From contig NZ_CP017305.1 in the NCBI RefSeq assembly GCF_001747405.1, forward strand, positions 700,001 through 764,000: a stretch of 64,000 nt of DNA, read 5' to 3'. Position numbers and translations under genes: made by a program. Positions 1 through 48,422 of this stretch are shown one piece after another. The stretch is from Chlorobaculum limnaeum. GTDB taxonomy: Bacteria; Bacteroidota; Chlorobiia; Chlorobiales; Chlorobiaceae. Each line of letters opens with the position of its first letter. Positions within the stretch are counted from its first letter, which is position 1. The notes beneath the pieces are model-generated. The model saw only the letters and a list, made by a program, of their open reading frames with translations. It ran no database searches and was not told the DNA's origin.

Positions 1-830
<830 letters not shown>

Positions 831-32958: not shown

Positions 32959-34065
32959 ATGAGCGACATTTTTATCAGTTATGCCCGTGAAGACAGGCCA
33001 AAGGCGCAGCAATTGGCCGAAGTGCTTGAGCGTCAAGGCTGGTCCGTGTGGTGGGACATCGCTATTCCAGCGGGACAGAAGTTTGGCGATGTGATTTCCG
33101 AAAAGCTCTCTCAAGCCGACGTGATCGTCGTGCTCTGGTCGGCAATATCGGTAAAAAGAGACTGGGTGCTCGATGAAGCGCAGATTGGCAAAAAACGCAA
33201 TATTCTGATTCCGGTATTTATTGAATCTGTTGATCCGCCTTTGGGGTATGGGCAGATACATGCAGCCAATCTCGTCGGTTGGAACGGTTCGCCCAGTGCG
33301 CCGGAATTCATCAGGCTGGTGCGGGATATTGAGAGGATTGCTGGTTCGCCGAAGGGTTCGCCAGCCTCCACGAATGTTCCAGGGGACGGGTCGGCAAAGA
33401 GGGGTGGCGCGTCTGTTGATCCAATCGAGATAAAAATCCCGCAGCGGATGGTCAACCTGCCGGTACTTTCTTCTGTTATAATTCGCAGGAATAGTGTAAT
33501 TGCCATTCTGTTGGTCGGGATGCTTATTATTGGCGGGATATTTATCGCCAGCCGTTCCGATAGTTCATCCGAGACTCAAATTCCTGCCACAGCTACTGTC
33601 GATGGCAATACCTATGCGGAAGGGGTTAAATTATATGACGCAGGCAAGTATGACGAAGCTTATCCTCTGTTGCTTCGGGCAGCCGAGCAAGGTGATGCAA
33701 ATGCACAGTGTTATATCGGTGTAATGTATGATAACGGCTATGGGGTAGCTCAAAACTATGATGAGGCGGTGAAATGGTATCGCAAGTCGGCGGATCAGGG
33801 AGATGCAGACGGGCAGGCGAACCTCGGCTTTATGTATGAAAAAGGGCTGGGATTGGCGCAGAATTATGAAGAGGCAGTGAAATGGTATCGCAAGTCTGCC
33901 GAGCAGGGGAATGCTTATGGGCAGTATGCTCTTGGAGATATGTATGAATATGGAAAAGGAGTCAAGAGGAACAAGGATGAAGCTATCAAGTGGTATCGTT
34001 TGTCGGCAAAGCAGGGAAACACCGATGCGCAGAAAAATCTGAAGCGTTTGGGCGAAGCCTGGTAA
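32959..34065 (+). CDS. TIR domain - transmembrane - Sel1-repeat protein
   Basis: A 368-residue protein with three parts. Residues 1-125 are a bacterial TIR domain: DIFISYAREDRPKAQQLAEV, WSVWWDIAIPAGQKF and the W-x3-E helix DWVLDEAQIG, where E73 is the likely NADase catalytic glutamate. A Pro/Gly-rich linker leads to one transmembrane helix (about 178-198). The C-terminal part (about 213-360) has four Sel1/TPR-like repeats, each with the AxxxGxxYxxGxGVxxNYDEAVKWY pattern. The TIR domain would face the cytoplasm and Sel1 repeats the periplasm if the N-terminus is inside. Defence, signalling or effector roles are all possible; no effector partner lies next to it. Confidence 0.88.
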   Translation: MSDIFISYAREDRPKAQQLAEVLERQGWSVWWDIAIPAGQKFGDVISEKLSQADVIVVLWSAISVKRDWVLDEAQIGKKRNILIPVFIESVDPPLGYGQIHAANLVGWNGSPSAPEFIRLVRDIERIAGSPKGSPASTNVPGDGSAKRGGASVDPIEIKIPQRMVNLPVLSSVIIRRNSVIAILLVGMLIIGGIFIASRSDSSSETQIPATATVDGNTYAEGVKLYDAGKYDEAYPLLLRAAEQGDANAQCYIGVMYDNGYGVAQNYDEAVKWYRKSADQGDADGQANLGFMYEKGLGLAQNYEEAVKWYRKSAEQGNAYGQYALGDMYEYGKGVKRNKDEAIKWYRLSAKQGNTDAQKNLKRLGEAW

Positions 34066-36905: not shown

Positions 36906-38111
36906 ATGAAAAGAGATTACTACGAGGTTCTTGGCGTCGGCCGTTCGGCGGACAAGGACGAAATAAAGAAGGCCTACCGCAAGCTGGCCCTGAAATATCA
37001 CCCGGACAAAAATCCTGACAACAAGGAGGCCGAGGAGAAGTTCAAGGAGGTCAACGAGGCGTACGAGGTGCTGAGCAACGACGACAAGCGCCGCCGCTAT
37101 GACCAGTTCGGTCACGCGGGCGTCGGCTCGTCGGCGGCATCCGGCGGCGCTTATGGCGGCGCGGGCTATGGCGATATCAACGATATTTTCAGCGCCTTCA
37201 ACGACATGTTTGGCGGCGGCGGAGGCCGCACCCGGGGTGGCGGTTTCGGAGGATTCGAGGATGTGTTTGGTGGCGGTTTCGGTGGTGGCGGTGGACGCCG
37301 CACGCGCTCGGCGGGTATTCACGGCACCGACCTCAAGATTCGCCTCAAGCTCACGCTCGAAGAGATTGCCAAAGGGGTCGAAAAGACGCTCAAGATCAAG
37401 AAGCAGGTGGTCTGCGAGCAGTGCAGCGGCACCGGCTCCAAGAGCGGCAAGACCGAGACCTGCCCGACCTGCCATGGAAGCGGCGAGGTTCGCCAGGCCT
37501 CCAAGACGATGTTCGGCCAGTTCGTCAACATCGCGGCCTGCCCGACCTGCGGCGGCGAGGGGCACGTCGTGAAAGATCGCTGCACCTCCTGCTACGGGGA
37601 AGGGATCAAGCAGGGCGAAACGACCGTCAAGATCAACGTTCCGGCGGGCGTGCAGGAGGGCAACTACCTGACGCTCCAGGGGCAGGGCAACGCGGGGCCG
37701 AGGGGCGGCGCGCCTGGCGACCTGATCGTGGTCATCGAGGAGAAGCCGCACGACCTCTTCAAGCGCAACGGCGACGACATCATCTACGATCTTTCGGTCG
37801 GATTCCCTGACCTTGTCATGGGCGTCAAGATCGACGTGCCGACGCTCGAAGGCCAGGTCAAGCTGACCATTCCGGCAGGCACCCAGCCCAATACGATGCT
37901 GCGCATTGGCGGCAAGGGTATCGGCCATCTGAAAGGCGGCGGCAGCGGCGACCTTTATGTGAGGGTGAACGTTTTCGTGCCGAAGGATGTCAGCGGCAAG
38001 GATCGCGACCTTCTGAAGGAGCTGAAAAAATCCTCGGCCATCTGCCCGAATCATGGCGATGAAAACCATGAGAAGAGCATCTTCGAGAAGGCGAAGGATA
38101 TTTTCAGTTGA
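36906..38111 (+). CDS. dnaJ: Chaperone DnaJ
   Basis: Hsp40 partner of DnaK, 401 residues. J domain (1-70) with HPD in [11 protein letters not shown]; a Gly/Phe-rich linker (about 75-140); zinc-finger domain with four CxxCxGxG repeats ([32 protein letters not shown]; about 170-240); and C-terminal substrate-binding domains. Type A DnaJ of normal length, with a strong terminator downstream. Confidence 0.97.
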
Positions 38112-38144
38112 GGGGAAACGTCCTCACGGAGATCGGATCAAACG

Positions 38145-38177
38145 AAAAAGCCGTCACATTGCGATGACGGCTTTTTT
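38145..38177 (+). terminator. Terminator of hrcA-grpE-dnaJ
   Basis: AAAAAGCCGTCA (38145-38156), 8-nt loop, TGACGGCTTTTTT (38165-38177): a perfect stem with T6. The A-rich left arm also serves the convergent flavodoxin gene on the minus strand. Confidence 0.9.
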
Positions 38178-38199: not shown

Positions 38200-38862
38200 T
38201 TACATGCCCATCGGACTCGACCTTGCCATGTCGAGCACCTCCGGCGTGATGCAGGTGATACCGTTCTGTTCGGCATAGACCGTGAGGGCGGCCTTGATTT
38301 TGTCGGCGAAAAATGGAGGCATCTGGCTGATCATCTCCTGCGCTTCGCTGCTCCACTGAAGCTTGTTTGCGCGGGAGCCGAAGCGGGGCCTGCTTGAGCG
38401 GCGGAACCCCTCCTCGATCTCCTCCACGAAATCGGCAATGATCTCTTCGTCGCCGATCTGATGCGGAGCGATCACCTTTTCGGCGAGAATCCGGTTGCGA
38501 ATCAGATGAATCTTGAGCTGCGGGAGGTAGAGTGTCTGGGCCATCGCCTCGGGACTTCCACAGGTCACGAAGAGGGCGATGTTCTTGTTGCGCAGGTAGC
38601 GTTTCAGGTTGCTCTGCACCAGCGCGCCGAGCAATTGCGAAGAGACGACCAGGTAGTACACGGGAGCGCCGAGAATCACCACATCGAACTCGCTGACGAA
38701 GCTGTAATCGGCCGTCGCCTTGCAGCGAGCCTTTTCGACATAGGCTCCGGTTTCGGCGAGCTGCTGGCCAATCGAGTCGATCAATCTGTCGGTCGATCCG
38801 CCGGTGGAGCGGCTGTCATAAAGGATGATGGCTCTCATCTGGCGTTCGTTGTCAGGCGTCAT
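38200..38862 (-). CDS. Flavodoxin-like protein fused to a PCP_red-type domain
   Basis: A 220-residue protein. Residues about 10-155 form a flavodoxin-like domain (AIILYDSRSTGGSTDRLIDS, an FMN-phosphate-type loop, and VVILGAPVYYLVVSSQLLGA). Residues about 169-215 (WSSEAQEMISQMPPFFADKI, VYAEQNGITCITPEVLDMA) match the small PCP_red domain otherwise found at the C-terminus of the BchB/ChlB subunit of light-independent protochlorophyllide reductase and in a few stand-alone proteins. The fusion suggests electron delivery linked to (bacterio)chlorophyll synthesis or nitrogenase-like enzymes; this is inference. It follows a shorter flavodoxin paralogue by 18 bp. Confidence 0.8.
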   Translation of the reverse strand: MTPDNERQMRAIILYDSRSTGGSTDRLIDSIGQQLAETGAYVEKARCKATADYSFVSEFDVVILGAPVYYLVVSSQLLGALVQSNLKRYLRNKNIALFVTCGSPEAMAQTLYLPQLKIHLIRNRILAEKVIAPHQIGDEEIIADFVEEIEEGFRRSSRPRFGSRANKLQWSSEAQEMISQMPPFFADKIKAALTVYAEQNGITCITPEVLDMARSSPMGM

Positions 38863-38880
38863 AGAATAGGTTTTGTTGAA

Positions 38881-39366
38881 TCAGTTGGCCTTGCCGTAGG
38901 CATCGAGAATTTTGTTCGCAAATTCAGCGATGGCATTGTGATCGCTGGTCTCGTCGGGCGAGAACGCTTTTTCAGCAAGGATCACCGGGTTGTCGAGATT
39001 CATTTTGAGTTGCGGCAGGTAGAGAAAGTTCGCCATCGGTTCGGGGCTGCCGCAAATGACGAAGAGCGCCACCTTCTTCCCTTTGAGGACGGCTCTCAGG
39101 TTGCTCTGCGAGAGTGCGCCGGTGAGCTTCGAGGCGACGAGCAGGTAGTAGATCGGCGCTCCGAGAAGCACGAGGTCGAACTCCTCGACGAAGCTGTAAT
39201 CCGCGTTGGGCTTGCAGCGGGCTTTTTCCACGTACGTTCCGGCTTCGGCGAGATTTTTGCCGATAGCGTCGATCAGCCGGTCGGCAGAACCGCCGACGGA
39301 CATGCTGTCATAAAGGATTATCGCCTTTTTTGGTTTGTCGAAGGTGCTGGTCATAGGCGTGAACAT
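38881..39366 (-). CDS. Flavodoxin-like protein
   Basis: A 161-residue flavodoxin-fold protein, AIILYDSMSVGGSADRLIDA at the FMN-phosphate loop and LVLLGAPIYYLLVASKLTGA in the second loop region. It is a clear paralogue of the downstream gene, with about half of positions alike over the shared domain and conserved blocks such as YVEKARCK, NADYSFV and LYLPQLK, but it lacks the PCP_red-like tail. The start may be the second ATG (MTSTFDKPKKAI, 39354). Likely co-transcribed with the downstream fusion gene; both share a conserved CGSPE in the third loop. Confidence 0.82.
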   Translation of the reverse strand: MFTPMTSTFDKPKKAIILYDSMSVGGSADRLIDAIGKNLAEAGTYVEKARCKPNADYSFVEEFDLVLLGAPIYYLLVASKLTGALSQSNLRAVLKGKKVALFVICGSPEPMANFLYLPQLKMNLDNPVILAEKAFSPDETSDHNAIAEFANKILDAYGKAN

Positions 39367-39470
39367 TAAGGTTTTGCCTGCCTCTGGAATGTAGCGGAAT
39401 AATAAGACATTACTCTTTCACGGCAAAATCTGGAGTGGGGCGGGGCGAGGGAAGATGTTGTTCCTCTTTA

Positions 39471-39525
39471 TCCTATAGGACTTATACTACCTATAAGTCC
39501 CATAGGTCTCATAAGTCCCATAGGA
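39471..39525. repeat. ATAAGTCCC nonanucleotide repeat
   Basis: Units of 9 bp (ATAAGTCCC, ATAGGTCTC, ATAAGTCCC, ATAGG) follow an inverted unit CCTATAGGACTTAT at 39471-39484. Like the GTGGACNNN arrays it has a strict 9-bp period and a fold-back arm, and lies at the 5' side of a gene pair and 3' side of gap. Confidence 0.7.
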
Positions 39526-39613: not shown

Positions 39614-40639
<1,026 letters not shown>

Positions 40640-43538: not shown

Positions 43539-44896
43539 GGTTCTTCGTAAGATTTAATGGTAACGCTCGTCAGCAATTACGTCAACCGGTAATAGCCATG
43601 TTGAGCTTTCCACAGTAAAACAAAATCCTTATGCGGTAGCTGTGAAAGCTGTGGAACCCACGGGCCGATGCTTTGTACAACTGGATCTTGCTGTTCAGAC
43701 CTTCGGAAACTGCGTTGGTCATTTCGTGCTCGAAATAGTTCAGGATGTTGTCGAGATGCCGCTTCAGCAGCTCTTTGACCTTGATCATGGGTTTCAACGC
43801 TAACTGGTCAACGCGTTCAGACCAGTAATCGAAAAAGAAGCTTGCACTCTCTCGACAACCCAGCCGCCAGAACTCCCGAAACATGTTCTTCATCGACCAG
43901 GCTTTTCCGGTTTTCAGCTCACAGGCCATCAATTGATCAAAGCTTGTCCGCTGGCTTTCCGTCATGTTCTCCGGATTGCGCAGCCAGGTGAATTTCGAGC
44001 CAATCAGAGTCCTGTCCCCTGCATGATGAAGTTGACGGGACTCTTGGCGACGAACCGTGTCGACCGCCTCGTTCAGATATTTGCTGATATGGAAACGGTC
44101 ATGCACAATATCGGCCTGCGGCAGATGCTTTTTGGCAGCAATCGCGAAGGGTTTCCACATATCCATCGAGATCGATTTCACACCCTGGCGTTGCGATGCT
44201 TCAAAGCTGAGGAGTAGCGCTTCTGCTCCATCGGTCGTTCGGCTCTGGACCACCTCAAGTACCCGGCCACCTTTCAGGTCGTTCAGGATCGTCACATACT
44301 GATGGCCTGCCCGGAAGCTCTTTTCATCAAGACCAAGATGAGCAATCGCCTCCTTATTCCGGCGGCTCAGGCCTCGCTTAACTGCACGGTTCATGATCTC
44401 GTTGGTTGCATGCCAGTTCAATCGCAAGAGCCTCGATGCCGACTGAATGCTTGAACACTCCTGAAGCAACTCGACAGCAAGCGCTTCAAACTTCAGGGTG
44501 TAGCGCGAAGAGCGCGTTGCCCACGGAACTTGAATTGTCTTGATCCTGTGCTCTTTGCACTCACACCGAGGCACCCTGGCTATCAGATGCGTCTCGTACT
44601 CCATGGTATCCAGATGCCGCCACCGTTGTTCTGGCGCCAGGTCATAAATTCGTCCGGCCTTGCCGCATTCAGGGCATTCGACTTTGGGTCCGATATACTC
44701 CAGATGGATTTCTATCCGGGGGCCGGACGTCGACAGCCGGACATCAGACACCTTCCATGTTTCTGGTAATCCTAATAACTGCTGGTAATGGGTAATGAGG
44801 CTCGGCATACGTTGGGGTTAGTGTTTTGGCGTTCTTGGATAAATTACACCAAGCCACTCATTTTTACTACCAGCCCATTAAATTCTGCGAAGAGCC
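43539..44896 (-). mobile_element. ISL3-family insertion sequence with 8-bp target duplication
   Basis: Inverted ends GGTTCTTCGTAAGATTTAAT (from 43539) and GGCTCTTCGCAGAATTTAAT (reading inward from 44896) flank one transposase gene; these ends match the GGCTCTT-start consensus of ISL3. Both sides carry the same 8 bp, AAAAAAAC (43531-43538 and 44897-44904), the duplication length typical for ISL3, so the 1358-bp copy is complete and the insertion fairly recent. Confidence 0.93.
43582..44808 (-). CDS. ISL3-family transposase
   Basis: A 408-residue DDE transposase. The N-terminal zinc finger has the cysteine pairs VECPECGKAG and RCECKEH; a helix-turn-helix follows. Catalytic residues are likely in HLGLDEKSFRAGHQYVT (about 165), SMDMWKPFAIAAKK (about 213) and EMTNAVSEGLNSKIQLYKA (about 373), the DDE motifs of ISL3. 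The frame is intact, so the element may still move. Confidence 0.94.
   Translation of the reverse strand: MPSLITHYQQLLGLPETWKVSDVRLSTSGPRIEIHLEYIGPKVECPECGKAGRIYDLAPEQRWRHLDTMEYETHLIARVPRCECKEHRIKTIQVPWATRSSRYTLKFEALAVELLQECSSIQSASRLLRLNWHATNEIMNRAVKRGLSRRNKEAIAHLGLDEKSFRAGHQYVTILNDLKGGRVLEVVQSRTTDGAEALLLSFEASQRQGVKSISMDMWKPFAIAAKKHLPQADIVHDRFHISKYLNEAVDTVRRQESRQLHHAGDRTLIGSKFTWLRNPENMTESQRTSFDQLMACELKTGKAWSMKNMFREFWRLGCRESASFFFDYWSERVDQLALKPMIKVKELLKRHLDNILNYFEHEMTNAVSEGLNSKIQLYKASARGFHSFHSYRIRILFYCGKLNMAITG

Positions 44897-46175: not shown

Positions 46176-48422
<2,247 letters not shown>

Follow-up and report, generated by a model that had tools for sequence, protein, structure and literature searches.

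A flavodoxin fused to a PCP_red domain in Chlorobiaceae is a candidate redox protein of the chlorosome-pigment pathway

The PCP_red domain (PF08369) is a known part of BchB, a subunit of DPOR, and structures are available for the C. tepidum BchB copy (2KRU) and for Asr4154 (2L09), as well as for DPOR chains. The partner protein BchL obtains its electrons from ferredoxin or a similar carrier (PMC7948495, PMC12518044). Flavodoxins include a tetrapyrrole enzyme of their own, the FMN protein HemG, or PgdH1 (PMC7242693), and in brown green sulfur bacteria Harada et al. described a pigment gene cluster, bciD-cruB-bchF2 (PMC3613366). Our literature search returned no useful paper on the function of PCP_red or PF08369, and none describing a protein in which this domain is fused to a flavodoxin.

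Such a fusion is encoded in a 64,000-nucleotide stretch of the Chlorobaculum limnaeum genome, hereafter the window (Table 1). The first-pass annotation had proposed a pair of flavodoxins there, one of them joined to a PCP_red-like domain, and placed both genes correctly. The fused protein exceeds the Pfam cut-offs for Flavodoxin_5 (PF12724; 31.1 bits, cut-off 27) and for PCP_red (36.2 bits, cut-off 32.5; E 6e-9), with model positions 1 to 45 of the latter all covered, so the profile comparison supports the proposed tail. In a genome-wide PCP_red search the fused-gene match was found at 738221-738355 with 38.8 bits. The 161-residue paralogue matches Flavodoxin_5 (28.3 bits, cut-off 27), and the Pfam search found no PCP_red in it, also as proposed. 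The 18-bp gap and the shared strand suggest that the two genes form one transcription unit, with the paralogue first. Between the paralogue and the GAPDH gene, a 15-bp CATAAGTCCCATAGG-like repeat occurs three times (window 39472-39524; chance expectation 0.01).

Table 1. Features at the fused-gene locus and a PCP_red radical-SAM gene from a non-phototrophic member of the Bacteroidota (window coordinates unless prefixed by a locus).
Feature	Coordinates	Strand	Evidence
dnaJ, convergent neighbour of the fused gene	36906..38111	+	
Terminator-like hairpin, 13-bp stem, between dnaJ and the fused gene (convergent)	38144..38177	.	
Fused gene (Flavodoxin_5, linker, PCP_red), 220 aa	38200..38862	-	Open frame and Pfam
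PCP_red domain of the fused protein (PF08369)	38218..38355	-	36.2 bits
Gap between fused gene and paralogue, 18 bp, genes on the same strand	38863..38880	-	
Unfused paralogue (Flavodoxin_5), 161 aa	38881..39366	-	Open frame and Pfam
Sigma-70-like promoter match upstream of the paralogue	39399..39426	-	Consensus match only; weak
GAPDH, neighbour upstream of the paralogue at the ancestral locus	39614..40618	-	
Radical-SAM/SPASM protein with C-terminal PCP_red, AhbD/NirJ2-like	L174:4273-5514		NirJ2 347 bits, AhbD 308 bits

In the fused protein the flavodoxin domain spans about residues 9-157, followed by a linker (159-166) and by PCP_red (170-214). Codon 9 is an internal ATG that matches the start of shorter orthologues, and the hallmark residues of PCP_red are numbered from it. 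Across 68 distinct fused proteins, these residues (W162, P174, A189, G193, I197, T198 and A205) never vary, and orthologous fusions score up to 65 bits with PCP_red (E 1.6e-17), so the assignment is not due to chance. The tail shows the PCP_red pattern W..EA....P.F....YA..G..IT..v..A, but it ends a flavodoxin rather than a nitrogenase-like subunit, and the protein is not itself a BchB or DPOR subunit, as its match to TIGR01278 reached 28.8 bits against a cut-off of 490 and was confined to the tail.

An AlphaFold2 model based on 23 sequences (mean pLDDT 81.7, pTM 0.66) showed a flavodoxin fold of five strands with flanking helices, a linker of low confidence (residues 159-166) and, at the C terminus, a domain of three helices, in keeping with the proposed architecture. 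A Foldseek search with this model retrieved Desulfovibrio-type flavodoxins at about 4e-8. The fold is shared with the short-chain flavodoxins 3F6R and 2FX2 (TM-score 0.74-0.77 by target length), although identity in the fold alignment is only 16-17%. Like Flavodoxin_5 proteins and short-chain flavodoxins, the fusion has a P-loop with a terminal Thr. After the first strand, most fused copies read S/T-x-G-G-S-T; the middle Thr of the classical FMN phosphate loop, T/S-x-T-G-x-T, is thus usually Gly, and the last Thr is present in all 68 distinct fused proteins. In the window, the fused copy has STGGST and the paralogue SVGGSA, a loop common to its closest relatives in which the Thr is replaced with Ala. 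Because of this conserved Thr, the fused copy is the better FMN candidate of the two in this genome and may bind FMN, but its middle position departs from the classical motif. Besides the PCP_red tail, two loops set it apart from short-chain flavodoxins: in place of the classical FMN loops it has GAPVYY and CGSPE loops, which we take to be more like those of FMN-reductase or iron-sulfur-flavoprotein types. It also resembles the FMN_red family, just below the cut-off (PF03358; 22.7 bits, cut-off 24). Because of this resemblance, a quinone or flavin reductase role appears as possible as that of a one-electron carrier.

We searched 394 Bacteroidota genomes, many of them MAGs, for the flavodoxin domain profile at E <= 1e-6. 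Of the 98 Chlorobia genomes, 96 contain the family, and the two without it are 81-82% complete; the remaining 296 Bacteroidota gave no match. A short-pattern scan of 84,980 species for close relatives yielded green sulfur bacteria only. Protein lengths are bimodal (146-157 and 207-218 residues), and the longer, fused form is confined to the Chlorobiaceae. It was absent from the deeper Chlorobia families (genomes G086 to G097), in which the PCP_red matches that we read closely were of the BchB or BchZ type. On a phylogeny built from the flavodoxin domain, the fused and unfused labels change twice, compared with a mean of 35.5 after shuffling. Constraining the 68 fused proteins to a single clade raised the likelihood by 3.6 and was not rejected (p-AU 0.60), so several independent fusions are not required. 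A single origin of the fused form is compatible with this tree, which, with a short alignment of 145 columns, speaks for compatibility rather than proof.

The first-pass annotation had stated that PCP_red is otherwise found at the end of BchB. This does not hold, as the domain also ends BchZ here and occurs in proteins of non-phototrophs. The second PCP_red match in this genome lies at the C terminus of a 482-residue protein (L001), which from its sequence we take to be BchZ; similar proteins are present in other Chlorobia. BchZ and BchB, subunits of COR and DPOR, thus both carry the domain at the C terminus as the fusion does, and differ from it by their nitrogenase-like domain. Outside Chlorobia, 14 of the Bacteroidota genomes had PCP_red matches, which clustered at one place in eight of the nine genomes examined closely. 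In the cluster that we annotated, L174, the matches belong to the radical-SAM protein listed in Table 1, to a protein that combines two universal-stress (Usp) domains with three copies of PCP_red, and to a small protein with PCP_red at its end; genes resembling cytochrome and oxidase genes are close by. The radical-SAM protein, below the cut-off of 500 for both the NirJ2 and the AhbD haem b synthase models, resembles the fusion in carrying PCP_red at the C terminus of a tetrapyrrole-type redox enzyme; it differs by its radical-SAM/SPASM core and has no flavodoxin domain. This cluster of non-phototrophic Bacteroidota (L174:4273-9367; also L173 and L175), which includes an Mrp-like ATPase, is possibly an undescribed haem-related system.

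On average, the PCP_red of the fusions is 33% identical to that of BchB, 36% to that of BchZ and 35% to the radical-SAM copies, and it does not keep the BchB-specific basic helix FFVRKKVRKNTE. This equidistance rules out a recent copy of the BchB domain. Since PCP_red occurs on several tetrapyrrole enzymes as well as on other proteins, and since the copy in the fusion is not BchB-like, the domain by itself is not a pointer to DPOR, as judged from sequence comparison. These observations bear on the proposal, made in the first-pass annotation, of a dedicated carrier that docks through PCP_red; for DPOR, such a carrier would feed BchL. The place of PCP_red in BchB and the supply of BchL by ferredoxin or a similar carrier fit this idea. 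We nevertheless regard it as quite unlikely, a narrower case to which the distribution among genomes lends no support: the tail is 33% identical to that of BchB and lacks its basic helix, and DPOR-bearing Chlorobia without the fusion exist. Thus, BchB and BchL were found, and the fusion was not, in the Chloroherpeton-type genomes G086 and G087 and in the Thermochlorobacteraceae-type genomes G095 and G097. The fusion was likewise not found in three Chlorobium genomes that are at least 96% complete (G021, G028 and G038), each of which retains a single unfused copy along with two PCP_red matches of other kinds; a BchB-type frame was found in all three. In addition, none of the fused-gene loci that we fetched was seen to adjoin bchLNB, although these genes were not among the markers used there and are masked in several genomes.

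This masking affects how searches for DPOR genes are read. No BchB or BchL match was obtained in this genome (G000) or in C. tepidum, in which the stretch where we expect bchLNB reads as N; these misses are therefore not evidence of absence, and we rejected the idea of a genome devoid of DPOR. The stretches G019:C1:2030001-2040000 and L077:10816-20000 read as N and probably cover bchLNB, and the same probably applies to other genomes, including this one, so that PCP_red and BchL searches would be falsely negative in several complete genomes. The deep Chlorobiales genomes G088 to G094 have BchZ-type PCP_red matches and no BchB or BchL over the cut-off, owing to masking or to a real absence of DPOR.

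The dnaJ-GAPDH-murC locus is conserved across the Chlorobiaceae and represents the ancestral location. In Chlorobaculum, including the window, the fused and unfused genes lie in tandem between dnaJ and the GAPDH gene, and in a luteolum-like group of Chlorobium the fused gene lies there alone. The orthologous fused gene of C. tepidum is located around G019:1388550-1389210, immediately downstream of its unfused paralogue. We found no linkage to pigment genes at the ancestral locus in either group. In most Chlorobium, the unfused copy has stayed between dnaJ and GAPDH and the fused gene has been relocated. A CsmB-type gene (74-75 residues) is found within 4.5 kb in 24 of the 38 relocated loci, and 17 have BchU, BchF or a B12/radical-SAM gene resembling BchE at a distance of up to 8 kb; either or both types are present in 36. 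These loci are related by descent and do not represent 38 independent events. A DUF1997 gene occurs in the fetched stretch at 35 of them and an uncharacterized small gene, c15, at 30; c15 and c32/c40 are two conserved small proteins at the CsmB-linked loci. Profile comparison gave no support for c15 as a relative of CsmB or CsmF. The identifications of BchU (472-484 bits, cut-off 276) and BchF (152-180 bits, cut-off 101) are solid. The matches of the radical-SAM genes to BchE fall short of the cut-off, and some of these genes may be BchQ, BchR or BciD. The CsmB-type name is our own assumption: the best match in the C. tepidum genome (2,154,946 bp) lies at 1.95 Mb (63% identity), where we expect csmB (CT2054), and a weaker one at 0.98 Mb, where we expect csmF (CT1046). 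The relocated loci resemble the cluster described by Harada et al.

Linkage to CsmB-type genes and to the small proteins c15 and c32/c40 would fit a protein of the chlorosome envelope, whose flavin domain would reduce chlorosome quinones or sense redox state while PCP_red contacts bacteriochlorophyll or the envelope. The FMN_red-like GAPVYY motif points in the same direction, as does the Chloroherpeton-type genome G086, which lacks the fusion and gave a weak CsmB match (18.6 bits). We consider this unlikely nonetheless, as gene linkage does not show location, the fused protein has no evident Csm motif, and the CsmB name of the linked gene is an assumption. A general flavodoxin, with a tail unrelated to pigment and a linkage reflecting shared gene order only, appears improbable. 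Chaperone and glycolysis genes are indeed its neighbours at the ancestral locus, and PCP_red is also found on Usp-type and small proteins of non-phototrophs, but within the phylum the family is restricted to phototrophic Chlorobia, and pigment or chlorosome genes are repeatedly present after relocation.

The flavodoxin nature of HemG raised the possibility that the fused protein is a protoporphyrinogen IX dehydrogenase with PCP_red as a substrate-binding tail. Both window proteins match the HemG model weakly, but their scores with the equivalog NF008316, 21.3 and 15.5 bits, are far below the cut-off of 142, and HemG identity was rejected on this basis. A role of the HemG type is kept as a very doubtful alternative because no HemJ scored over the cut-off in six green sulfur bacteria and the only HemY-like protein is borderline; its presence argues against this role, as does the ancestral state of the family, unfused and devoid of PCP_red. 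The HemY-like protein (G000:C1:2285292-2286458; L235:616-1815) is just below the TIGR00562 cut-off (95.0 versus 97.85 bits), and the protoporphyrinogen oxidase of green sulfur bacteria deserves attention for these reasons.

With a confidence that falls somewhat short of even, we favour a role of the fusion as a redox protein in the chlorosome-pigment pathway, in which the PCP_red tail would make contact with pigment or with tetrapyrrole enzymes. This reading is based on the company that PCP_red keeps (DPOR, COR and haem-type radical-SAM proteins), on the restriction of the family to Chlorobia within the phylum and on the gene linkage. Of the earlier proposal, the link to pigment has thus become stronger, whereas a docking role specific to DPOR is not supported. 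An ancestral Chlorobia flavodoxin would have given rise to two copies, probably at the dnaJ-GAPDH locus; one of them would have acquired PCP_red and become a two-domain redox protein of the BChl c/d/e pathway in Chlorobiaceae. Its flavodoxin domain, presumably loaded with FMN, may act as a one-electron carrier, and PCP_red, on its flexible linker, may direct it to Fe-S enzymes that handle tetrapyrroles or to the pigment on which these act. As clients, we consider most likely either low-potential BChl tailoring steps, those of BchE-like B12/radical-SAM enzymes, or DPOR and COR, both nitrogenase-like reductases. Several observations count against the favoured reading: the flavodoxin domain has its FMN_red-type resemblance and usually Gly at the middle Thr of the P-loop, the Usp-repeat and small PCP_red proteins have no obvious tetrapyrrole chemistry, the fused gene adjoins dnaJ and GAPDH rather than pigment genes in Chlorobaculum and the luteolum-like Chlorobium, and some Chlorobium lack the fusion.

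A broader version, which we think rather unlikely, is that PCP_red is a general docking module on tetrapyrrole-handling redox enzymes (DPOR, COR and AhbD/NirJ2-type radical-SAM proteins). A single fusion to a flavodoxin in Chlorobiaceae would then have produced a reductase reserved for those steps of chlorosome BChl synthesis that depend on radical-SAM and nitrogenase-like enzymes. If so, (bacterio)chlorophyll synthesis would, to our knowledge, gain its first electron carrier specific to the pathway, and PCP_red would no longer be the namesake domain of one enzyme but a functional module common to chlorophyll and haem enzymes. We know of no established physiological electron donors of the radical-SAM methylases and oxidase of BChl c/d/e synthesis; a flavodoxin tied to this pathway both through a domain that it carries and through its gene neighbours would be a direct candidate, testable in the genetically tractable C. 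tepidum.

Three other genes of the window deserve mention. A NifH/BchX-type Fe protein (window 3-746, minus strand; PF00142, 403 bits) runs off the window start, and a protein with a TIR domain and Sel1 repeats (window 32959-34065) is possibly involved in signalling or defence. A 732-residue protein (window 46176-48374) resembles a catalase-peroxidase, in an anaerobic lineage; a stretch of low G+C content that contains a transposase-like ORF (43582-44808) lies nearby.
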